Assembly: GCF_014750655.1 (NCBI RefSeq)
Contig: NZ_JABBXD010000006.1
Location: forward strand, 62,001-126,000
Length of the DNA: 64,000 nucleotides
Direction of reading: 5' to 3'
Source of the DNA: Salinimonas profundi
GTDB taxonomy: Bacteria; Pseudomonadota; Gammaproteobacteria; Enterobacterales; Alteromonadaceae
A model generated the notes under the pieces. It ran no database searches and was not told the DNA's origin. It worked only from the letters and a program-made list of their open reading frames with translations. Positions within the stretch are counted from its first letter, which is position 1. Every line of letters starts with the position of its first letter. A program made the translations under genes and the position numbers. This document shows, piece after piece, positions 11,720-63,844 of the stretch.

Positions 11720-13108
11720 CTAATAATCGTCGCCTATTGGCGGCCCGGCATAATTGTCAAATCGTGAGAACTGCCCCTGGAAGGTCAGCCGACATGTGCC
11801 AATCGGACCGTTACGCTGTTTACCAATTATAATTTCGGCGATGCCCTTTTCTTCACTGTTCTCGTGATAAACCTCATCCCGATAGATAAACATAATAAGG
11901 TCAGCGTCCTGCTCGATAGAGCCGGATTCCCTGAGATCCGAGTTAACCGGTCGTTTATCAGCACGTTGTTCCAGGCTCCGGTTAAGCTGGGAAAGTGCAA
12001 CAACCGGCACTTCCAATTCTTTAGCCAAAGCTTTCAGTGAGCGGGAGATTTCTGCAATTTCTAATGTACGATTATCACTAAGTGACGGGACTCGCATCAA
12101 CTGCAGGTAATCCACCATAATGAGCGATATCCCACCGCGCTCCCGAGCCAGCTTACGTGCTCTGCTTCGCACATCCATAGGGGTCAGCCCTGAAGAGTCG
12201 TCGACGAAAAGACTGTCTTTGTCTTTTAGCATGGCCATGGTGTTTGAGATGCGGGCCCAGTCTTCATCATCAAGTTGCGCGGTTCTAATCTTTGTCTGAT
12301 CAACCCGACTCAACGATGCCAGCATACGCATCATGATTTGTTCCGATGGCATCTCAAGACTGAACACAAGCACCGGCTTATCTTCGGCCATCATTGCGTT
12401 TTCACACAGATTCATCGCAAAGGTCGTTTTACCCATCGAAGGACGGGCAGCAACAATCACAAGGTCCGATGGCTGCAGACCACTGGTCTTTTTATCCAAA
12501 TCGGTAAAACCTGTGGTAACACCAGTTACTTCCTTATTGGTTTTTATCAGCGCTTCGAGACGATCTATGGTTTTACCAAGAACGGAATCAACCCCTTGCG
12601 GCCCTTCTGATTCGCCCGTGCGCTTTTCAGCAATTTCAAAAACCTTACTCTCAGCGTAATCCAGAATATCCGCACTGTCTCGCCCTTCCGGATTGTAGCC
12701 AATTTCAGCGATGTCGTGCGCGACACCGATGAGTTCACGTGTGACCGCCCGCTCGCTGATGATTTTTGCATAGCTGACGACGTTGGCTGAACTGGGAGTG
12801 TTCTTGGCCAGTTCGCCCAGATACGCAAACCCACCAGCGTCTTCGAGCTCGTCGTGCTGCTCAAGCTCCTCTGAGACGGTAATTAAATCAACCGGCTCAT
12901 TACGGCCCAATAACCGGACGATGGCGCGAAATATAATCTGATGAGAACGGTTATAAAAGTCAGTCTCAGTGACCACTTCTGCCACCTTGTCCCAGCTATC
13001 CGGATCGATCAGCATACTACCCAGCACAGACTGCTCAGCCTCTATGCTGTGTGGCGGTACTTTTAGCTTTTCTACATTTTGATCTTTACCAGAAGATACG
13101 ACTTTCAC
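11720..13108 (-). CDS. dnaB: Replicative DNA helicase DnaB
   Basis: Hexameric 5'-3' helicase of the replication fork. 462 residues. The N-terminal primase-interaction domain is seen from PPHSIEAEQSVLGSMLID. The RecA-like helicase domain has Walker A ARPSMGKTTFAMN (about 223-236), Walker B LIMVDYLQLM, and the Arg-finger region SDLRESGSIEQDADLI. No intein interrupts it. In many gammaproteobacteria it directly follows rplI; here rplI is about 9.5 kb away. Confidence 0.97.
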   Translation of the reverse strand: MKVVSSGKDQNVEKLKVPPHSIEAEQSVLGSMLIDPDSWDKVAEVVTETDFYNRSHQIIFRAIVRLLGRNEPVDLITVSEELEQHDELEDAGGFAYLGELAKNTPSSANVVSYAKIISERAVTRELIGVAHDIAEIGYNPEGRDSADILDYAESKVFEIAEKRTGESEGPQGVDSVLGKTIDRLEALIKTNKEVTGVTTGFTDLDKKTSGLQPSDLVIVAARPSMGKTTFAMNLCENAMMAEDKPVLVFSLEMPSEQIMMRMLASLSRVDQTKIRTAQLDDEDWARISNTMAMLKDKDSLFVDDSSGLTPMDVRSRARKLARERGGISLIMVDYLQLMRVPSLSDNRTLEIAEISRSLKALAKELEVPVVALSQLNRSLEQRADKRPVNSDLRESGSIEQDADLIMFIYRDEVYHENSEEKGIAEIIIGKQRNGPIGTCRLTFQGQFSRFDNYAGPPIGDDY

Positions 13109-13324: not shown

Positions 13325-15169
13325 ATGTATCTTCGCTTAACTACAATTTTTCTTCTTCTTTGCTTCTCGAAAGCTGTTATTGCAGACACGCCTGAAGATT
13401 ATCTAGCAGAAAGACGGCAGATTTTGGGGCAGGCACCTGAAAATCGTCAGGAACCACTAAAAGATCATCCATTCGATATGAAGACTGTTCTGGGAAAGTA
13501 TTTTTATCTCTCCTCATTCCTTTACGTTGAAAATGACCCGGCGTTTTACGCATTAGCGGATTCTGAGCTTGAGACTCTGCGTAAAAGGTATCCTGAATAC
13601 TATTACGAACGTGAAGTACTGATGATTTGGCTGTCGGACTTACCAGACGAAGAAAAATTTGAAGCGTTTAGAGATGTTCAGACCATTGCCCGACAGAATC
13701 GCTGGGTTCGTATTGAGGGCTGGGCAACATCAATGCTGGTTTTATCTTTGCAGTCTTCAGAACTGCACTTCAATGCAATAATTGAAATGAATAATTTCAT
13801 ACCTCGTGCACGTCATTCTGATAAGTCGGGTATGACATATGATTACACTTTGCACGGAATTTTTTATCAGATGTTCTCGTCGCTATATTCGCTGAATGAC
13901 TTCGAAGGTGCATTGAAGTTTTGTCGCAAGTATAAAGCTTACTCACCCGATGATATTAGTGTTCAAATTGATGGCATTTCCTGCGAAATATCGGTTTTGT
14001 TGAGACTAAATCGGCTTGAAGAAGTGCAAGCCAAATTAAAAACAATGAGTAAATTGGTTGAAAGCGCAGACCTTATTGATTCAAGAATACGTCTTTTAAT
14101 GCTTTCCGCTGCGTTTTATCGCGAAAAAGATCGTCCTGATTTGCTGTTTGTGTATGCTAAAGATGCGCTGGACCTCCATTTAAAGCACAACAGTTCACTG
14201 AGTCCAACTGTGTACGGTTTGTACTCGCTTCTTACTGCCAGCCAACTTGAGCTAAATAATGCTGAAAAAGCCGAGTTTTACTTAAACAAAATGCGCGCGG
14301 TTACTCCAACGTCTCAAACAACTGGCCCTGAAGCGGATATAAATGATTTAACAGCACAAGCCAGAATTCTCAATCTTAAGGGTGAGCACGAAAAAGCTAT
14401 TCTCTATTACGAAAAGCTTTTAAAAGCGCTGTATTTTAAAGAAGACGCAAAGTTTCGTTTTCGGGAAATGAAAGGGGTTGGCAACTCTATCAATGCCAGA
14501 GAAGTGAAGCTGACAAAGCAACAGCTAAAAAAAAGCAAAGATTACTTAAAAATAGTGACTGTTATTGCGACTGTTACTACGCTATCAACCATAACGGCAA
14601 CCATAGTGTTATGGCGACAATCACGCCGTAAACGCGATCTCGAACGCTTTTCCCGGCTCGACAGTCTGACCCGGGTTTACAATCGCTGGTTTGCGCTCGA
14701 CGCGATAAAAAAACGCCTTAATGATATGAAAAGGCAGGACGATAAAGTATGCGTTGCGCTAATTGATTTAGACCATTTCAAACGCATTAATAAGTTGTTC
14801 GGTCACCAGGTCGGTGATGCCATACTCTCCCACTTTGCCCGACTGTCCAAATACCAGTTTCGCGATGAAGACGTCTTCGGCCGCTATGGTGGTGAGGCAT
14901 TTGTACTGATGCTAAGTGGCGCAACGCAAAGCGATGCAGTGGCCAAATTACACAAACTTCGGGAAATACTGAGTCATCAGGACCTCACCAAACTGGGTGC
15001 CGATGGCACACTAAAATTCTCTGCAGGGGTTGTGGAAGTCAGTGAAAAAGCTGATATTACACAAGTTTTATCTCAATGCGATAAATTGCTTCACGCAGCT
15101 AAGCAACATGGCCGTAGTCAGGACATCTGTGCACCGTTCAGGACGTCAATGCAGGATGATATTTTGTAG
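13325..15169 (+). CDS. Periplasmic-sensor GGDEF protein, tandem copy 1
   Basis: Putative membrane diguanylate cyclase. The 614-aa protein has a signal peptide (1-20), a helical, probably TPR-like periplasmic region (about 21-410), one membrane segment (about 411-430) followed by RQSRRKRDLER, and a cytoplasmic GGDEF domain (446-605). The GTP/metal motifs LIDLDHFKRIN and GHQVGD are present. The A-site reads RYGGEAF (GGEAF at 522-526), with Ala where the fourth signature residue is normally Glu. An inhibitory-site RxxD (RDED, 513-516) lies at canonical spacing. First of three tandem paralogues; divergent from dnaB. Activity and ligand are not known. Confidence 0.88.
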   Translation: MYLRLTTIFLLLCFSKAVIADTPEDYLAERRQILGQAPENRQEPLKDHPFDMKTVLGKYFYLSSFLYVENDPAFYALADSELETLRKRYPEYYYEREVLMIWLSDLPDEEKFEAFRDVQTIARQNRWVRIEGWATSMLVLSLQSSELHFNAIIEMNNFIPRARHSDKSGMTYDYTLHGIFYQMFSSLYSLNDFEGALKFCRKYKAYSPDDISVQIDGISCEISVLLRLNRLEEVQAKLKTMSKLVESADLIDSRIRLLMLSAAFYREKDRPDLLFVYAKDALDLHLKHNSSLSPTVYGLYSLLTASQLELNNAEKAEFYLNKMRAVTPTSQTTGPEADINDLTAQARILNLKGEHEKAILYYEKLLKALYFKEDAKFRFREMKGVGNSINAREVKLTKQQLKKSKDYLKIVTVIATVTTLSTITATIVLWRQSRRKRDLERFSRLDSLTRVYNRWFALDAIKKRLNDMKRQDDKVCVALIDLDHFKRINKLFGHQVGDAILSHFARLSKYQFRDEDVFGRYGGEAFVLMLSGATQSDAVAKLHKLREILSHQDLTKLGADGTLKFSAGVVEVSEKADITQVLSQCDKLLHAAKQHGRSQDICAPFRTSMQDDIL

Positions 15170-15223
15170 TGGTTAAATACCACTGCGTAATTGCCCAGGC
15201 TTCTTTTCACTATAACGTAAAGG

Positions 15224-17086
15224 ATGAGTTTCGCTCGATTTATGTATTTGCGCTTAATCACTTTCACGCTGCTGGTGTTAACCTGTCTCACCGTATTCGC
15301 CGATACACTAAACGATTATGAAGCGAAACGACGTGAAATTTTACAGCAGGCTCCAGAAAACCGGCTTGAAGCGTTAGACGATCATCCTTTTGATACCAGC
15401 ACTCCGCTTGGCAAGTATTTCTATCTGTCATCGTTTCTTTATATTGAAAATGATCCGGCGTTTTACGCCCTAACCGAATCTGAACTTGAGACATTACGCG
15501 CCGATTACCCGCAGTATTTTTATGAACGCGAGGTGCTCATGGTCTGGTTGTCGGATTTGCCCGACGAGGAACGTTTTGAAAAATTCCGCTCGATTCAGAC
15601 TATTGCCAGAAAAAACAACTGGCCTCGCATAGAGGGCTGGGCAACATCATTACTGGTTACCTCACTTCAAGCCGCTGAACTGCATTTCAATGCCATCTTA
15701 GAAATGAACAACTACACGCCCAAGGCTCCGCATACTGACAAAGATGGCATGTTTTACGATTACCCATTGATGGGCGTCTTTCTCGACATATCGATTTCTT
15801 TGTATTATTTGGATGACTATAAGGGTTCGCTCGAGTTTTGTGGTAAATATAAACAGTACTTGCCGGAAAACACATCTACACAGTTTTATGGTTTATCGTG
15901 CGAGATAAGTTCACTTATTGCCCTTGAGCGTTATGATGAGGTTCAGTCAAAGTTAAAAAAGATGAATCAGATAGCTGAACAATCCGGATTAACCGAATAT
16001 AAAGTTCAACTTTCATTAAGTTCTGCTTTTTTTTATCGAGCCATAGAGCGCCCCGATCTCACGTATCATTATGCAAAAGATGCGCTCGACATTTTTCAGC
16101 GAGATGGGAAATCGTTAAATCCTACTGTGTACAACATCTATGTGTTGTTAACCGTCAGCCAGATTGACTTAGAAAATATTGAACGCGCTGAGTTCTATTT
16201 GAAAAAATTGCAAGAGCTCCCTCTCACGACACAAATTGAAGGCCCAGGCACGCAAGTCGATTCGCTTGTCGCCCAGGCCAATATCTATGAGCTCAAAGGT
16301 CAATATGAAAAAGCCCTCCCGTATTATAAGGAAGCGTTTGAAGCTTTATACCTGAATGAAGCTTCAACATTCAGTTTTACACAGCTTAAAAGTATAAATA
16401 GTTCTTTGAATAGCCGAGAGCTTGCCCTGACTAAAAAGCAGCTTCAGGAAGAAACGCGATATTCCACGATTGTCACTTTAGTTGCCGGTGTAAGTATTGT
16501 GATAGCTTTAGTCACCAGCGCATTAGTGTGGCGACTAACCAGACGCAAACGCGACCTCGAACGCTTTTCCCGACTCGACAGTCTGACCCGGGTTTACAAT
16601 CGCTGGTTTGCGCTCGACGCTATTAGAAAGCATCTTAATGGTATGAAAAGGCTGGACGATAAAGTGTGCGTCGCACTTATTGATATAGACCACTTCAAGC
16701 GTATCAATAACCTGTTCGGTCACCAGGTCGGAGATGCCGTGCTTTCCCACTTTGCCAGACTATGCAAGTACCAGTTTCGCAGTGAGGACGTGTTCGGACG
16801 ATACGGCGGTGAAGCATTTATACTGATGCTAAATGGCGCAGCACAAACTGATGCAGCAGAAAAACTACAGGGATTACGCGATGTATTAAGCCATCAGGAT
16901 CTCACCAAACTGGGCGCCGATGGCGCACTGGAATTCTCTTCCGGGGTTGTGGAAGTGAGCGAAAAAGCTGATATTACACAGGTTTTAACACAGTGCGACA
17001 AACTGCTTTATGCCGCTAAGCGCAATGGTCGCAATCAGGATATCTGTACGCCGTTCAGGCCAGCAGAGCAGGACGATATTTTGTAA
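15224..17086 (+). CDS. Periplasmic-sensor GGDEF protein, tandem copy 2
   Basis: 620-aa paralogue with the same layout: N-terminal signal segment ending FADTLN, periplasmic helical region, membrane segment (about 417-437), and GGDEF domain from DSLTRVYNRWF (452). The A-site is RYGGEAF (GGEAF at 528-532) and the I-site is RSED. The N-terminal half has drifted from copy 1, but the start of the GGDEF domain is almost identical in DNA. The start at 15224 gives MSFARF before the MYLRL that begins copy 1; an ATG at 15242 is the alternative. It starts 54 bp after copy 1, probably in the same operon. Confidence 0.87.
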   Translation: MSFARFMYLRLITFTLLVLTCLTVFADTLNDYEAKRREILQQAPENRLEALDDHPFDTSTPLGKYFYLSSFLYIENDPAFYALTESELETLRADYPQYFYEREVLMVWLSDLPDEERFEKFRSIQTIARKNNWPRIEGWATSLLVTSLQAAELHFNAILEMNNYTPKAPHTDKDGMFYDYPLMGVFLDISISLYYLDDYKGSLEFCGKYKQYLPENTSTQFYGLSCEISSLIALERYDEVQSKLKKMNQIAEQSGLTEYKVQLSLSSAFFYRAIERPDLTYHYAKDALDIFQRDGKSLNPTVYNIYVLLTVSQIDLENIERAEFYLKKLQELPLTTQIEGPGTQVDSLVAQANIYELKGQYEKALPYYKEAFEALYLNEASTFSFTQLKSINSSLNSRELALTKKQLQEETRYSTIVTLVAGVSIVIALVTSALVWRLTRRKRDLERFSRLDSLTRVYNRWFALDAIRKHLNGMKRLDDKVCVALIDIDHFKRINNLFGHQVGDAVLSHFARLCKYQFRSEDVFGRYGGEAFILMLNGAAQTDAAEKLQGLRDVLSHQDLTKLGADGALEFSSGVVEVSEKADITQVLTQCDKLLYAAKRNGRNQDICTPFRPAEQDDIL

Positions 17087-17136
17087 CTACTATTTGTTAC
17101 TACACTGCGAAAGGTATTTTCAACATTACTTATTGG

Positions 17137-18999
17137 ATGAGTATTTCTATCTTTATGTTTTCACGCTTAATCATCATCACGCTACTACTTTTGACCTGCC
17201 ACACCGTATTTGCCGGCACACTTGAAGAATATGCGGCGAAGCGGCGTGCAATTTTAAAACAGCCTCCGGAAAACCGGTTGAAAGCGTTAGTGGATCACCC
17301 TTTTGATACCACCACAGTACTTGGTAAATACTTCTATCTTTCCTCATTTCTCTATATTGAGAATGACCCGGCATTTTATGCATTAACAGATTCTGAGCTT
17401 AAGGTCTTGCGTGAGGATTACCCTGAGTATTTTTACGAACGTAAAGCGCTGATGATCTGGCTATCGGATTTGTCTTATGAAGAGCAGTTTAAAAAATACC
17501 GGGACATTCAGGCAATCGCCAGAGAAAATAACTGGCCTCGCGTTGAAGGCTGGACCACATCACTTTTGGTGTACTCATTACTAACAGCCGAATTACACTT
17601 CAACGCTATCCTGGAAATTAATAACTATATACCTCTGTCTTCAGGTAATTTGAGTCGGGGAATGGCTTATGATTATTCGTTATCCGATATATTTCACAAT
17701 ATGTATAGCGCACTTTTCAGTCTGGGAGACTTTGAGGGTGCCCTCGAGTTTTGTCGCAAATATAAGAACAACGCACCACAGGATCCCGATGTTCAGGTAG
17801 ATGGACTTTCATGCGAAATACTTACCCTGATTAACCTGGAAAAATTCGATGACGCCTGGGCAAGTCTGAAAAAAATGAGTGAACTAGCTGAAGATACCGG
17901 GCGCAGTGATTTAAACGTTCAGCTACTTACTTATTCAGCGGTTTACTTTCGAGAGCAAGAGCGCCCTGAACTGGCCTATTTATACGCGAAAGATGCGTTA
18001 GACCTTCATTTAAATTCAAAACATGTCCAGCGCTCTACAGAGTACTCCTTATACAAACTTCTCACTGCTAGCCAGATTGAACTTAAAAACGCTGATAAAG
18101 CCGAATTTTATCTCAACAAAATGCAAAGCCTTCCAAAAAATTTCCAGACCGAAGGTCCTCGCCAGGATGTGAATTCGTTATATGCACAAGCAAAAGTAGA
18201 GAGTCTCAAAGGTCAGCACGAGAAAGCCAACTCCTATTATGAAGAAGCCATCAAGATTTTATTTTTCAAAGAAAAAGCAAACTTCAGCTTTAAGCAGTTG
18301 AAGCGTATTGATACTGCTATCAACGACAGAGATGTCACGCTAATAAAACAAAAGCTTAATCAAAAAGAGTTAGACTTCACAATCGCAGCCTCTGTAGCAA
18401 CTTTTAGTTCATTTGCCGCACTTTTAACGGGGTTAATACTTTGGCGACAATCACGCCTTAAACGGGAAGTAGAGCATTTTTCCCGAATTGATAGTCTTAC
18501 CAGCGTATATAACCGCTGGTTTGCTATTGATACCATTAAATTGCGCATTAATACTATGAAAAGGCTGGACGATAAAGTATGCGTCGCGCTTATTGATTTA
18601 GACCATTTCAAACGTATCAACGACGCGAGTGGTCATAAAATGGGTGATACAGTTCTGTCTCATTTCGCGCGATTGTGCAAGTATCAGTGCAGTGAAGCAG
18701 ATGTGTTCGGCCGCTATGGTGGTGAAACGTTTGTACTGATGTTAAGTGGCGCAACCCAGAACGACGCAAAAGAAAAACTGCGCTCGCTACGGGAGATTAT
18801 AAGCCAACAGGACCTGACTAAACTGGGCGCAGAGGGTACCTTGGCGTTTTCAGCAGGCATTGTGGAAGTCAGCGATAAAGCGGATATTTCGCAGGTTTTG
18901 TCCCAGTGCGACAAACTGCTTTATGCCGCTAAACAGAATGGTCGCAATCAGGATATCTGTGCACCGTTCAGGCCAGCAGAGCAGGATGACATCGTTTAA
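17137..18999 (+). CDS. Periplasmic-sensor GGDEF protein, tandem copy 3
   Basis: 620-aa paralogue of the two upstream genes: signal segment (ending VFAGTLEE), periplasmic helical region, membrane segment (about 415-437) and GGDEF domain. It differs in the output domain. The signature is GGETF (528-532), and the RxxD product-inhibition Arg is Ser (CSEAD in place of FRDED). It has the canonical RINDASGHKMGD that the other two lack. All three end in a shared tail near PFRPAEQDDI. It begins 50 bp after copy 2, and its stop codon directly abuts the stop of the convergent lipoprotein gene. Confidence 0.87.
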   Translation: MSISIFMFSRLIIITLLLLTCHTVFAGTLEEYAAKRRAILKQPPENRLKALVDHPFDTTTVLGKYFYLSSFLYIENDPAFYALTDSELKVLREDYPEYFYERKALMIWLSDLSYEEQFKKYRDIQAIARENNWPRVEGWTTSLLVYSLLTAELHFNAILEINNYIPLSSGNLSRGMAYDYSLSDIFHNMYSALFSLGDFEGALEFCRKYKNNAPQDPDVQVDGLSCEILTLINLEKFDDAWASLKKMSELAEDTGRSDLNVQLLTYSAVYFREQERPELAYLYAKDALDLHLNSKHVQRSTEYSLYKLLTASQIELKNADKAEFYLNKMQSLPKNFQTEGPRQDVNSLYAQAKVESLKGQHEKANSYYEEAIKILFFKEKANFSFKQLKRIDTAINDRDVTLIKQKLNQKELDFTIAASVATFSSFAALLTGLILWRQSRLKREVEHFSRIDSLTSVYNRWFAIDTIKLRINTMKRLDDKVCVALIDLDHFKRINDASGHKMGDTVLSHFARLCKYQCSEADVFGRYGGETFVLMLSGATQNDAKEKLRSLREIISQQDLTKLGAEGTLAFSAGIVEVSDKADISQVLSQCDKLLYAAKQNGRNQDICAPFRPAEQDDIV

Positions 19000-19494
19000 T
19001 TATAAGCCATCAGCCTGCGTTTTAGCCGGTGTTTTTTCCATTTTATAGAACGCACCATTCCAGACAGTGTAGGCCTTGCCGGATGCGGCAAGTAATACGG
19101 TTTGACCCGGTAGACGTTCTGCTTCATCACATGTTACTGACACGGTACGAACAGCATTATCGTGAATATCCAATTCACGTAATCCTATATTGTAATCCTG
19201 TTTAAACTCAGCGGCAGACAATTTAGCTTCGTCATACTCTGCAGACTTACAGAACGTCCGACCCAGTGTGAGATTTTCAGGGCCATAGTGAAATGATTGC
19301 CCTAGCCACATTTGTGAATCTTTATCAGATGCTTCGTTATTAGTCGGCGCTATGGCTTCAGTAATAATCCATGTACCTTCTATTTCGCCAGGTTCACGAA
19401 CCGCACAACTTACTGCTCCAACAAGAAAAATTGTTATTAAAGCGACTATTTTAAATTGGGTGCTTAATAGAGACCGGTGTATCGCGTCCCACAT
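19000..19494 (-). CDS. Hypothetical lipoprotein
   Basis: Not recognised at family level. The 164-residue protein starts with a good AAGGAG ribosome-binding site and has a hydrophobic segment ending in a lipobox-like GAVSC (Cys 30), suggesting a lipid-anchored periplasmic protein. The segment after the Cys (EIEGTWIITEAIAP) resembles the start of lipocalin-like or META-type small beta proteins, but this is only a resemblance. It is convergent with GGDEF copy 3, with no gap between stop codons. Confidence 0.7.
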   Translation of the reverse strand: MWDAIHRSLLSTQFKIVALITIFLVGAVSCAVREPGEIEGTWIITEAIAPTNNEASDKDSQMWLGQSFHYGPENLTLGRTFCKSAEYDEAKLSAAEFKQDYNIGLRELDIHDNAVRTVSVTCDEAERLPGQTVLLAASGKAYTVWNGAFYKMEKTPAKTQADGL

Positions 19495-22619: not shown

Positions 22620-23072
22620 TTATGCTTCAGCGATGATCACAACTTTAACTGTTGTTGCTACATCAGAATGCAGCTGAACATCGATGTCGTATTCGCCAGT
22701 TTCACGCAGTGTGCCGGTAGGCAGACGAACTTCTGATTTGGCAACTTCAACACCCGCAGCAGTGATTGCTTCAGCGATGTCTTTTGTACCAACAGAACCG
22801 AAAAGTTTACCTTCGTCACCAGCAGGTGCGGCAACAGTAACTTCTTCCAGTGCGTCCAGTTTTTCAGCGCGTGCTTGTGCAGCAGCCAGATCTTCAGCGA
22901 TTTTCGCTTCCAGCTCAGCACGACGTGCTTCAAACTTCTCTACGTTGTCTTTAGTTGCAGGAACTGCTTTACCCTGAGGGAAAAGGAAGTTACGAGCAAA
23001 ACCAGACTTAACATTAACTTTGTCGCCCAGACCACCAAGGTTGGCGATTTTATCCAGTAGGATGATATCCAT
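22620..23072 (-). CDS. rplI: 50S ribosomal protein bL9
   Basis: Large-subunit protein bL9, 150 aa. The family N-terminus is clear: [19 protein letters not shown], then [17 protein letters not shown] central helix rich in Ala, Glu and Lys links to the C-terminal domain ending VKVVIIAEA. Third gene of rpsF-rpsR-rplI and last before a strong terminator. Confidence 0.98.
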
Positions 23073-23097
23073 CTTAGCTACCCCTTATTTCGCCAGT

Positions 23098-23325
23098 TTA
23101 CTTGTGTGAATCAGTGTACGGAAGCAGTGCAAGAAAACGTGCACGCTTGATTGCAGAAGACAGCTGACGCTGATACTTCGCACTGGTACCTGTGATACGG
23201 CTAGGGACGATCTTACCGCTTTCTGTGATGTAGTTCTTCAGCGTAGCGATATCTTTATAATCGATTTCAGTTACACCTTCTGCAGAAAAACGGCAGAACT
23301 TACGACGTCTGAAAAAACGAGCCAT
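23098..23325 (-). CDS. rpsR: 30S ribosomal protein bS18
   Basis: Small-subunit protein bS18, 75 aa, containing [30 protein letters not shown] and [15 protein letters not shown]. It lies 11 bp after rpsF and 25 bp before rplI. PriB, often encoded between rpsF and rpsR in enterics, is absent here. Confidence 0.98.
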
Positions 23326-23336
23326 GATTATACTCC

Positions 23337-23738
23337 TTACGCGTTATCTTCGGTGGTTTCGGTTTTCTTTTCTGTACGCTCTGTACGAGGCGCAGAATCT
23401 TCGCGACGCTCACGACGAGGCTCTTCTTTCATCATTGGAGAAGGCTCAGTCACAGCGTTTTTAGTGCGCATAACCAGATTACGCAGGATAACATCGTTGA
23501 AGCGGAACGCATTTTCCAGCTCATCAACAGCTTCAGCAGTCGCTTCTGCGTTGATCAGAACATAGTGTGCTTTGTGCAACTTCTCGATTGGGTAAGCCAG
23601 TTGACGGCGACCCCAGTCTTCCATACGGTGAATCTGACCACCGTCTTGCTTAAGGATTGTGGTATAACGCTCGATCATACCAGGTACTTGTTCACTCTGA
23701 TCAGGGTGAACCATAAAAACGATTTCGTAATGACGCAT
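23337..23738 (-). CDS. rpsF: 30S ribosomal protein bS6
   Basis: Small-subunit protein bS6, 133 aa, partner of bS18 in the 30S platform. Motifs include [39 protein letters not shown] and [14 protein letters not shown]. The charged C-terminal tail (about 105-133, rich in Glu, Arg and Thr) is a common extension that can be glutamylated by RimK; whether that happens here is unknown. Confidence 0.98.
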
Positions 23739-61081: not shown

Positions 61082-62359
61082 TTAGTAAATCAGTTCAGGC
61101 AAAAACAGGACGATAGAGGGGAAAAGAGCCATTAGCGTGATCAATCCCATTACCGCCAGATAAAACGGCCAGGCCGCGCTGACATATTCGTCTGTAGGGC
61201 ACTGCATGATGTTGCACACCGAATACATCGCAATACCTACCGGCGGTGTTGTCCCTCCGAAGGTAACAATGATCATCATCAGTACACCAAAATGAATCGG
61301 GTCTATGCCCACCGCCTGGACGACCGGCACAAGAATCGGCGTCAGTAGCAGCACAATAACCGTTCCTTCCATTAACATGCCTACAAAGAGCAAAAAAATC
61401 AGACATAACAACAGCACAAGAATTGGCTGACTGGTCAGGTCACTGACAGCCTGCGCCAACGATACAGGGAGCTGCTGATAGGCGACAACATACCCCACCA
61501 CCCCGGCGCTTAAAATAATCAGCATAATCATACCGATATCATCAATACTGTCTTTCAAAGATGTAATAAGGCTGTCAAACGTAAGCTCCCGATAGCACCA
61601 GAAGCCGATGATACCGGCGTAGACTACCGCAAAGGTGCCCGCTTCTGAGGGCGTAAAAATACCAAAGCGAATAGTGACAATCAGAATGACGGGGAACAAC
61701 AGTGCCCATTTACAAGCGTTCATTGAACGCAATATTTGTCGCAGATCAGGTCGCTTCTCGCCCTCGGCTTGCTCCGGATAATGCTTTTTAACCTGGAAAA
61801 AAACAGTGAGCATCAGCGTCACTGTCAGCAAGATGCCCGGGACAATTCCTGCAATAAATAATTTGCCGATAGATACATTGCCCACAAAGCCGTACAAAAT
61901 AAGGCCGATACTGGGTGGAATACAGGCTGTGATTAATGCACTGATGGTGACAATGGCGGCACTGAATCCTTTGCCCAGCCCGGACCTCTGCATTGGTGTT
62001 CCCAGTATACGAGCCTGCATCGCCGCATCAGCAATGGCTGAGCCCGACACTCCGCCCATCAGTGCGCTGAGAATAATGGTGACATGGGCCAGGCCGCCGG
62101 CAATCCAGGCCACCAGCAAATTTGAAAAACTTATCAGCCGCTGCGTGATGCCGGAATGATTCATAATATGTCCGGCCAGAATGAAAAAAGGCACTGCCAG
62201 CAACGGAAAGCTTTGACTACTGGCGACCAGCCGCTGCACAGCCACTGCCATGGGCAGGCTATCTGCGTTTACAAAATAGCTCAGCCCGGCAATGAGAAGA
62301 CAAAATGCCAGGGGAAGCCCAATAGCCAGCAAAAGAAGAAACAGCAACAGCATCATCAT
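61082..62359 (-). CDS. TRAP transporter large permease DctM
   Basis: 425-aa multi-span inner-membrane subunit of a tripartite ATP-independent periplasmic transporter. Family segments are VPFFILAGHIMNHSGITQRL, GGVSGSAIADAAMQARILG, ITACIPPSIGLILYGFVGN, FVGMLMEGTVIVLLLTPIL and GGTTPPVGIAMYSVCNIM. Its start overlaps the dctQ stop by 4 bp. With DctP and DctQ it imports a carboxylate, probably a glucuronate-containing sugar acid given the neighbours. Confidence 0.93.
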   Translation of the reverse strand: MMMLLLFLLLLAIGLPLAFCLLIAGLSYFVNADSLPMAVAVQRLVASSQSFPLLAVPFFILAGHIMNHSGITQRLISFSNLLVAWIAGGLAHVTIILSALMGGVSGSAIADAAMQARILGTPMQRSGLGKGFSAAIVTISALITACIPPSIGLILYGFVGNVSIGKLFIAGIVPGILLTVTLMLTVFFQVKKHYPEQAEGEKRPDLRQILRSMNACKWALLFPVILIVTIRFGIFTPSEAGTFAVVYAGIIGFWCYRELTFDSLITSLKDSIDDIGMIMLIILSAGVVGYVVAYQQLPVSLAQAVSDLTSQPILVLLLCLIFLLFVGMLMEGTVIVLLLTPILVPVVQAVGIDPIHFGVLMMIIVTFGGTTPPVGIAMYSVCNIMQCPTDEYVSAAWPFYLAVMGLITLMALFPSIVLFLPELIY

Positions 62360-62823
62360 AATCCTGCCTCCGGATTCTCACGATGATGACGCCCTGTCAG
62401 GCGGCTAACCAGAGTCAGAATCATTAGTACAGCGCCTACCGGTACACAAAGTGTTACCCAGCGATAGGCAATGCTGGTGCTCCCCAGTGTTCGCTGCGGA
62501 TTTGCCATAAACAGCTCAACTCCAAACCAAACAAGAACACCAAGAACGACGATCATCAGCACATCCAAGCCAGAGAAAAGCAGTTCTCTGTAGGCCGGAT
62601 GTAGACGCCGGGTAAAAATATCCACACTCGCGTGTTGTCCGTGATGAAATGTCTGATTGGCCGCAAGCATTGCCAGCCAGGCGAACAGTAACTGTGCAAC
62701 ATCTACCGACCAGATAATCGGATAGCCAAGTGTTCGCATAATGGCAGCGATAAACACCAGAAACACGATGGCAACCAGCAACAGCACACACAGCCAACGC
62801 TCAATGCGATGAATCATTTGCAT
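62356..62823 (-). CDS. TRAP transporter small permease DctQ
   Basis: 155-aa four-helix membrane subunit. The second helix region, RTLGYPIIWSVDVAQLLFAW, is typical for DctQ, as is HHGQHASVDIFTRRLHP. It overlaps dctM by 4 bp and the 3' end of dctP by 23 bp, so the three are translationally coupled. Confidence 0.9.
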   Translation of the reverse strand: MQMIHRIERWLCVLLLVAIVFLVFIAAIMRTLGYPIIWSVDVAQLLFAWLAMLAANQTFHHGQHASVDIFTRRLHPAYRELLFSGLDVLMIVVLGVLVWFGVELFMANPQRTLGSTSIAYRWVTLCVPVGAVLMILTLVSRLTGRHHRENPEAGL

Positions 62824-63844
62824 CGTCAGCCTCCTGTAACAGTGTTTGGATATCCTGGAACAATGCTGCGTAGCCTAGATTTTTATAAACCACCTTGGCA
62901 GATTGCCGGAACGGCGCAGTATCAGGCTCTGCAATCACCACCCCGTGCGCTTTAAGCGCCTCTTCAATTTTTACCTCTTCAGCGCGTACCTGCTGCGACG
63001 CAAAACTGCCTGCCTCTATGGCCGCTCGCGTAACAATTTTTTGCTGGCGTGGAGTAAGTGACTGATACCAGCGCTCACTTCCCACCAGACCGGAGATGAG
63101 CTGGATGTGCCCGGTTTTGGTGACATGCGTTATAACTTCATATAAGCGCGCGCCCCACATACCGGTATATTGCGCCTCTGCTGCATCTATAACCTGCTGC
63201 TGAAGACCGCTGTACACCTCCGCCCAGGCCAGTGGTGTGGGTGTGGCGCCCATCGCTTCGATAGTTTGTATCCAGACCGGTGCGCCGATAGTGCGCATTC
63301 TTATTCCTTGCAAATCCGCTGGTGCAGACACCGGTTTTTGGGTCAGCAGATGTCTTGCACCCTGCCACCAGTTAAATGAAAAAATATGCAGTCCGTGGCG
63401 CGTAGCCAGGCTGTCTGCCCATTCAGAAAAAAGAGGCGAATCAACCAATACATTGAGCTGCCCGTAATCTTCAACAAGGTAAGGGGCCCCAAGTATGCCA
63501 AGCTCATTCTGGTAAACCGCCAGCCTTCCTCCATCGGCAAGTACGGCCACGTTGGCGCCCAGCATCGCCTGTTCGAGCATATCGCTGTCATTGCCCAGCT
63601 GCGATCCCACAAAAATGCGCACAGAAAGACGCCCCTGTGACGCCGTCTCTACCTGATTTTTAAATTTCACCAACCCTTCGTACATAGGATCGTTGGTACT
63701 TAGTGATGTGATGACATTCAGGGTAGAGTCAGCAGCCACAGGCATCGCTAACAATAAGAAGGCAGCAACACTCAGAACACGTTTGCGCAGACACGCGGTT
63801 ACCCATGTTCTGAATGTTTTGGCGATTGATGCAAGTACGGACAT
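62801..63844 (-). CDS. TRAP transporter solute-binding protein DctP
   Basis: 347-aa periplasmic binding protein. Signal sequence (about 1-38) ends AMPVAADS. It has the DctP-family features FKNQVETASQGRLSVRIFVG, VWIQTIEAMGATPTPLAWAE and EVYSGLQQQVIDAAEAQYTG. The conserved Arg in GIRMRTIGAP binds the substrate carboxylate. It begins 11 bp after the stop of the GH67 gene. The substrate is inferred to be a uronate or aldonate. Confidence 0.92.
   Translation of the reverse strand: MSVLASIAKTFRTWVTACLRKRVLSVAAFLLLAMPVAADSTLNVITSLSTNDPMYEGLVKFKNQVETASQGRLSVRIFVGSQLGNDSDMLEQAMLGANVAVLADGGRLAVYQNELGILGAPYLVEDYGQLNVLVDSPLFSEWADSLATRHGLHIFSFNWWQGARHLLTQKPVSAPADLQGIRMRTIGAPVWIQTIEAMGATPTPLAWAEVYSGLQQQVIDAAEAQYTGMWGARLYEVITHVTKTGHIQLISGLVGSERWYQSLTPRQQKIVTRAAIEAGSFASQQVRAEEVKIEEALKAHGVVIAEPDTAPFRQSAKVVYKNLGYAALFQDIQTLLQEADDANDSSH

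Follow-up and report, generated by a model that had tools for sequence, protein, structure and literature searches.

Introduction

Tandem arrays of diguanylate cyclases, and proteins in which tetratricopeptide repeats (TPRs) are combined with a GGDEF domain, are already known. Here we analyse an array of three GGDEF genes beside dnaB in a 64,000-nucleotide stretch of the Salinimonas profundi genome (contig NZ_JABBXD010000006.1, positions 62,001 to 126,000; hereafter the window), whose copies are mosaics of sensor and output parts. In Leptospira interrogans, LIC_11125-LIC_11131 comprise seven head-to-tail GGDEF paralogues, the number of which varies between serovars (PMC12943098). These proteins carry PAS sensors, whereas a predicted exported TPR superhelix is found in the present array, and no reassortment of sensors and outputs is described in the available part of that report. 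In Vibrio vulnificus, the adjacent genes for RcbA and RcbB encode TPR proteins, one ending in a GGDEF domain and the other in a different C-terminus, and a TPR-TPR interaction controls the cyclase (PMC12282931). This pair is a precedent for the control of a cyclase through TPRs by a partner without a GGDEF domain; however, it is predicted to be cytoplasmic, forms a two-gene operon conserved across diverse taxa and does not consist of tandem copies of a single receptor. Degenerate GGDEF receptors of the PopA type have an altered signature and a retained RxxD motif, as do copies 1 and 2 of our array, and both catalysis loss and domain swapping in GGDEF proteins have been reviewed (PMC10333796). 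The array differs from PopA-type receptors in that its GGDEF domains lie behind a transmembrane (TM) helix and a periplasmic sensor, its binding of cyclic diguanylate (c-di-GMP) is putative, and copy 3 has lost the arginine of the motif.

The peptide-binding TPR receptors Rap, NprR, PlcR and AimR, which are cytoplasmic and occur in Firmicutes and their phages, share the superhelical fold predicted for the array sensor, but they are only remotely similar to it in sequence, and unrelated TPR proteins score almost equally. Among the open-licence literature matches listed, no title or abstract reports the reassortment of sensors and outputs among tandem GGDEF copies.

Results

Layout of the array

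The three genes and the regions of the central copy are as follows.

13325..15169, + strand: copy 1, periplasmic TPR sensor, one TM helix and GGDEF domain, 614 amino acids
15224..17086, + strand: copy 2, same layout as copy 1, 620 amino acids
17137..18999, + strand: copy 3, same layout as copies 1 and 2, 620 amino acids
15359..15709, + strand: conserved N-terminal part of the sensor (N-cap), copy 2 residues 46-162
15710..16423, + strand: variable TPR cassette, copy 2 residues 163-400, still orthologous to its counterpart in copy 2 of the sister genome (G016)
16466..16528, + strand: TM helix, copy 2 residues 415-435, the most hydrophobic 21-residue stretch
16556..17038, + strand: GGDEF domain, copy 2 residues 445-605, match to TIGR00254

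The initial annotation had described three head-to-tail paralogues of about 615-620 amino acids with a common signal, sensor, TM and GGDEF layout, and both its coordinates and the layout proved right. All open reading frames (ORFs) are intact and on the same strand, with 54 bp between copies 1 and 2 and 50 bp between copies 2 and 3. Each encodes a signal peptide (judged by eye, with no predictor), a helical periplasmic sensor, one TM helix and a GGDEF domain. Copies 2 and 3 align with copy 1 from end to end, with a six-residue difference at the start, and are 64% and 61% identical to it. When copy 2 was used as a query in its own genome, which contains 40 GGDEF matches in all, copies 1 and 3 scored 890 and 840 bits and any other gene at most 95, a gap that rules out a chance likeness between unrelated GGDEF genes.

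Pairwise identity among the three copies is 70-78% in residues 46-162, 47-52% in residues 163-400, 32-35% in the TM region (residues 401-440) and 73-84% in the GGDEF domain. The sensor thus has an N-cap that is about as conserved as the output, followed by a variable centre. The earlier statement that the sensors differ while the outputs are similar therefore stands for residues 163-440 and for the GGDEF domain, and does not extend to residues 46-162. The initial annotation overlooked both this conserved first third of the sensor and the mosaic structure set out below.

Evidence for a mosaic structure

Orthologous sensors of all three copies are recognisable in the sister genome, with a ratio of nonsynonymous to synonymous change (dN/dS) of about 0.1. 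For 48 other window genes, a set that excludes the array itself and three ORFs for which there was no orthologue, the proportion of synonymous differences (pS) between the two genomes had a median of 0.60 and a range of 0.03-0.80. Within the array, pS between orthologues changes sharply along two of the genes: copy 1 goes from 0.30-0.32 in the sensor to 0.76 in the GGDEF domain, and copy 2 from 0.44 in the N-cap to 0.20 in the centre (residues 165-400, 94% identical at the amino acid level) and then to 0.77 in the GGDEF domain. The values for copy 3 are more even (0.65, 0.56 and 0.50). Window copies 1 and 2 share one GGDEF type, with a pS of 0.48 to each other versus 0.76-0.77 to their own orthologues, so that these paralogous segments are closer than the orthologous ones at synonymous sites, as in concerted evolution. 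The GGDEF domain of copy 2 of the sister genome is nearest to that of window copy 3 (pS 0.39). On the basis of these synonymous-site differences, we rejected the idea that selective constraint alone accounts for the conservation of the output.

A MaxChi-type test on third codon positions located the joints. In six of nine trios, which share sequences and are not independent, none of 20,000 permutations reached the observed statistic, and the breaks fell at codons 427, 433, 435, 439 and 442 in five trios and at codon 470 in one. Control trios from nine flanking genes (window, G016 and G008, with the third species replacing the paralogue), which control for chance breaks and are no matched paralogue set, gave 213 of 5,000 permutations as the lowest value. 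In phylogenetic trees the sensors cluster by copy, and for the GGDEF domain the pairing of the two copies 2 is rejected in an approximately unbiased (AU) test (p-AU 2.3e-6). These comparisons of sequences show the copies to be mosaics of sensor and output with breakpoints mostly in or just after the TM helix; the three sensor types of the window are maintained by purifying selection. The low pS of the sensors further suggests exchange between lineages after the species had split.

Two other window stretches, 61082-63844 and 22620-23738, the second of which includes rplI, also have very low pS to the sister genome (0.03-0.27 against the median of 0.60), which suggests either recent exchange between species or strong codon bias.

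Reassortment in other arrays

Patches of the same kind were found in two further arrays of the genus, and none of 1,000 permutations reached the statistic in any of the five pairs tested. The four-copy array of G020 has a centre of 41% identity flanked by matching N-terminal and GGDEF parts; among copies 2-4, the N-cap and GGDEF domain are 96-99% identical. Third-position mismatches in copies 3/4 number 152/230 in codons 196-426 versus 15/397 outside, in copies 2/4 156/230 in codons 176-406 versus 27/380, and in copies 2/3 85/160 in codons 186-346 versus 19/451. The reverse pattern occurs in G028, where copies 1 and 3 have sensors of 85-89% identity and GGDEF regions of only 18% (52/375 mismatches in codons 39-414 versus 136/198 outside). 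Copies 4 and 5 of the same array share an output, with 17/200 mismatches in codons 356-556 versus 163/388 outside. The C-terminal joint lies 11 codons before the TM helix in G020 copies 3/4, 14 in G020 copies 2/4 and 24 in G028 copies 1/3. Such patches at synonymous sites point to homologous recombination and are not expected from constraint alone.

GGDEF outputs

All three outputs belong to the GGDEF superfamily, with 115-120 bits against PF00990 (curated cut-off 23.8; E 2.8e-33 to 1e-34) and 134-137 bits against TIGR00254 (cut-off 37.4). Their active-site signatures and the positions of the RxxD motif of the I-site, nine residues ahead of the signature, are listed below.

14888..14902, + strand: copy 1 active-site signature GGEAF
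16805..16819, + strand: copy 2 active-site signature GGEAF
18718..18732, + strand: copy 3 active-site signature GGETF
14861..14872, + strand: copy 1 RxxD position RDED, I-site motif kept
16778..16789, + strand: copy 2 RxxD position RSED, I-site motif kept
18691..18702, + strand: copy 3 RxxD position SEAD, I-site arginine lost

None of the copies has a GG[DE]EF signature, the second acidic residue being missing from each. The I-site motif is present in copies 1 and 2, which may bind c-di-GMP through it, and absent from copy 3. Among the other GGDEF-type signatures of the window genome, glutamate occupies the fourth place in at least 27 of 30; this regular-expression count covers 30 of 36 GGDEF stretches, the six without a clear signature being left out, and of its three exceptions (AGDLF, SGDRF and GGDVF) at least SGDRF is an artefact of the expression. 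A search of open-licence papers for work on the fourth residue of the signature found nothing. In Escherichia coli DgcX, an engineered change from GGEEF to GGEAF abolished activity-dependent phenotypes (PMC10459773). Based on this mutant and the missing acidic residue, the window outputs probably have little or no cyclase activity, and the proposal of the initial annotation that the array reads cues into c-di-GMP is not supported in the form in which it was made.

The outputs of relatives were compared using 25 of the 28 extracted frames, which also served for the trees and the cysteine count; the split copy of G043 and a spurious ORF of G006 were omitted, and the G043 signature was read separately. 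Copies 1, 2 and 3 of the sister genome have GGEEF, GGETF and GGETF, respectively, and its copy 2 has asparagine in place of the metal aspartate (LIN for LID). Single copies carry GGEEF in G008, G015, G002, G005 and G043, GGEKF in G027 and GGGEF in G013. All four copies of G020 have GGEEF and no RxxD motif, and all seven copies of G028 and G006 are without a GG[DE]EF signature. We make no claim that multi-copy status goes with the loss of the canonical signature: GGEEF is present in 5 of 7 single slot copies and 5 of 17 multi-copy ones, but the arrays represent only about three independent expansions.

Structure of the sensor

The only Pfam signals on the sensor were to TPRs, all below the curated cut-offs. 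The structure prediction that the initial annotation had proposed, run on copy 2 (residues 27-400, six-sequence alignment), yielded repeated helix pairs arranged in a TPR superhelix, with a predicted local distance difference test (pLDDT) score of 84 and a predicted template modelling score of 0.80. The 50 best structural matches listed have Z scores of 18-24, and many of them are TPR proteins. The peptide receptors Rap and NprR come first (Z 23-24), nearly tied with the non-peptide-receptor TPR proteins APC/C (Z 23) and LGN (Z 22), so that the match supports the fold and no class of ligand. The resemblance to receptors of the Rap/NprR type is one of superhelical shape only, over about 225-317 aligned residues with 8-13% identity. 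In the full-length model, a single helix (residues 385-455) runs through the TM segment, with pLDDT below 50 at residues 377-404 and 443-457. Cysteines 206 and 226 of copy 2, both in the TPR part, are conserved in 25 of 25 aligned members, even in the degenerate ones, and this pair may form a periplasmic disulfide.

Distribution and genomic context

At E <=1e-25, a sensor profile (A2) built from 19 sensors detected the family in 12 of the 59 genomes that represent the genus. In a family sample it matched 9 of 345 genomes at 1e-20, of which 8 belong to the genus and one, elsewhere, is a partial match; in an order sample it matched 6 of 394 at 1e-12, three in the genus and three partial. No full-length sensor was thus found outside the genus in the sampled relatives of the family and order, with 4-5 candidates scored per genome. 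Named relatives that carry the family are Salinimonas chungwhensis, Alteromonas indica and Alteromonas aestuariivivens. The earlier view of an expanded family with divergent sensors is borne out by this lineage-specific distribution, by the recognisable sensor lineages in the sister genome and by their dN/dS, the latter two being as expected for three distinct maintained specificities.

The genes next to the array are as follows.

11720..13108, - strand: dnaB, divergent neighbour, marker of the slot in 12 of 12 carrier genomes
19000..19494, - strand: 164-amino-acid protein of no recognised family, convergent neighbour of the array

Each of the 12 carriers has the family upstream of dnaB in divergent orientation, and in 10 of them it directly adjoins dnaB; in G028 and G006, genes for a PAS histidine kinase and an alpha/beta hydrolase lie between the two. 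Gene order around dnaB was examined in the window itself, in nine further carriers and in 20 additional regions, of which two come from carriers and 18 from non-carriers; the other 29 non-carriers were covered by the profile search alone. No family gene was found near dnaB in the stretch examined of the 18 non-carriers, two of which were clipped by contig ends. The slot holds three copies in the window genome (G000) and in G016, four in G020, five in G028, two in G006 and one in each of the other seven carriers; G015 and G043 have one further copy each outside it. The array is therefore neither common nor fixed in copy number. In a tree of the sensor centres, the copies of G000, G016 and G008 form one group (100/100), those of G020 another (100/99), and those of G028 and G006 two more (100/100 each), from which at least three tandem expansions at this one slot can be read.

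The 164-amino-acid neighbour has no Pfam match at E 0.01 and was rejected as a partner of the array, as it adjoins dnaB in 13 of the 18 inspected genomes that have no array. A link to mobile or viral elements was likewise rejected: no relative was found in viral contigs, and none of 14 matching plasmid records exceeded 80% of the query, the ten listed covering at most 41% of it at the GGDEF end.

Several other observations were made at or near the slot. The five tandem members of G028 (L074 210-12289), with degenerate GGDEF domains, lie beside the kinase, a PAS hybrid histidine kinase, and the hydrolase. The same pair of genes, 64% and 79% identical to those of G028, adjoins dnaB in G052 (L075 2061-4970), where the profile search found no family member and the contig ends just beyond. 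The dnaB-linked copy of G043 (L035 7663-9548) is split into two overlapping frames and is probably a broken gene. In the dnaB-upstream regions L088 and L090, from genomes without an array, the slot is occupied by other, unassigned ORFs, and it may thus be a general insertion hotspot. Off the slot, related single copies occur at L041 7181-9082 and L042 7669-9591, one near a peptidase M3 gene and the other near a DUF1456 gene; they have altered signatures, with AR for NR and AD for GD.

Discussion

We consider it likely that the array belongs to a dnaB-linked, genus-restricted family of exported receptors that has been expanded in tandem, with sensors and outputs reassorted and the outputs mainly regulatory. 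The shared scaffold comprises a signal peptide, the N-cap, a variable periplasmic TPR superhelix, a TM helix running into a cytoplasmic stalk, and a GGDEF or GGDEF-derived output. Homologous recombination among copies, by gene conversion or by exchange between related lineages, reassorts sensors and outputs, with most joints in or near the TM helix, and this step is visible in the sequences. Each TPR cassette could hold a periplasmic peptide or protein segment in its groove, and the signal would travel through the TM and stalk helix to the output. The outputs most likely act as regulatory partners rather than as full cyclases, perhaps by binding c-di-GMP (copies 1 and 2, via RxxD) or by pairing with each other or with other GGDEF proteins. 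Mixed complexes of the array copies, which the initial annotation had also raised, are possible, and the near-identity of the N-cap and GGDEF domain in G020 copies 2-4 is compatible with them.

Several points weigh against this interpretation. The three trios of copy 3 give weak breakpoints (45, 50 and 196 of 20,000 permutations), and the nine trios, having sequences in common, are not independent. Rejection of the copy 1 pair in the GGDEF tree is only marginal (p-AU 0.047). For the converse grouping in the sensor, the AU test gave p 0.468 in spite of a log-likelihood 271 lower; the expected rejection is absent, and we take this p value as a failed computation. Some joints lie off the membrane, 74 codons (G020 copies 2/3) and 61 codons (G028 copies 4/5) before the TM helix. 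The near-tie of the structural matches leaves the idea of a peptide ligand for the modelled TPR sensor weak. The predicted loss of activity is an extrapolation from one engineered mutant in a different scaffold, and the metal-site aspartate, the third-position glutamate, the asparagine and aspartate that contact the substrate, and the C-terminal lysine and arginine are intact in all three copies.

These intact residues, of which the metal aspartate and the substrate residues have catalytic roles in PleD, together with the strong GGDEF scores, would fit a set of three active diguanylate cyclases that convert three related cues from the periplasm into c-di-GMP signals, with the fourth signature residue dispensable in this scaffold. 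We regard this as unlikely, though it is the most serious of the alternatives, given the effect of GGEAF in DgcX, the glutamate at the fourth place in nearly all other signatures of the genome, the lost metal aspartate in copy 2 of the sister genome and the loss of the whole signature in G028 and G006. The degenerate outputs of those two genomes, the frame change in G043 and the patchy presence of the family would also be seen if redundant copies were drifting towards pseudogenes, with loss slowed only by conversion. Such decay is improbable for an array with intact frames, orthologous sensors under a dN/dS of about 0.1 and two TPR cysteines retained even in degenerate members. Ordinary tandem duplication, in which three diguanylate cyclases diverged vertically with fast sensors and a constrained catalytic domain, has the Leptospira arrays as a precedent (PMC12943098) and accounts for a variable sensor centre and a conserved output at the protein level. 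It predicts roughly even synonymous sites along each gene, however, and we find it very hard to reconcile with pS values from 0.20 to 0.77 in one gene, with GGDEF domains closer between some paralogues than between orthologues, and with nine control genes that show no strong break. Finally, although the window genome is a 30-contig draft, an artefact of short reads that collapsed or chimerised the repeats can be practically dismissed, as collapse is unlikely for paralogues of 61-64% identity and the three-gene order recurs in the 2-contig G016 assembly, with a four-copy array in the single-contig G020.

Within the interpretation of reassorted receptors, a more specific and tentative possibility, which we think rather less probable than not, is a system of receptor-cassette exchange, in which the slot beside dnaB maintains several copies of a single receptor scaffold, the conserved ends serve as homology arms and the central TPR cassette, carrying ligand specificity, moves between copies and species independently of the output. 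Parallels would be the exchange of specificity domains in the hsdS genes of restriction enzymes and that of receptor halves in peptide pherotype systems. If true, such exchange would allow lineages to join stable specificities of the periplasmic part anew to GGDEF outputs that are active, receptor-type or dead.

The shuffling of sensors and outputs is assumed to take place over evolution, but a single locus at which it is caught happening several times is rare. In the present case, two sister species have the same sensors joined to different outputs, and further arrays at the slot combine one output with different sensors, or one sensor with different outputs. These natural chimeras, many of them joined near the TM helix, are suited to testing how a GGDEF domain is governed by a TPR sensor in the periplasm and whether tandem copies tend to lose catalysis.

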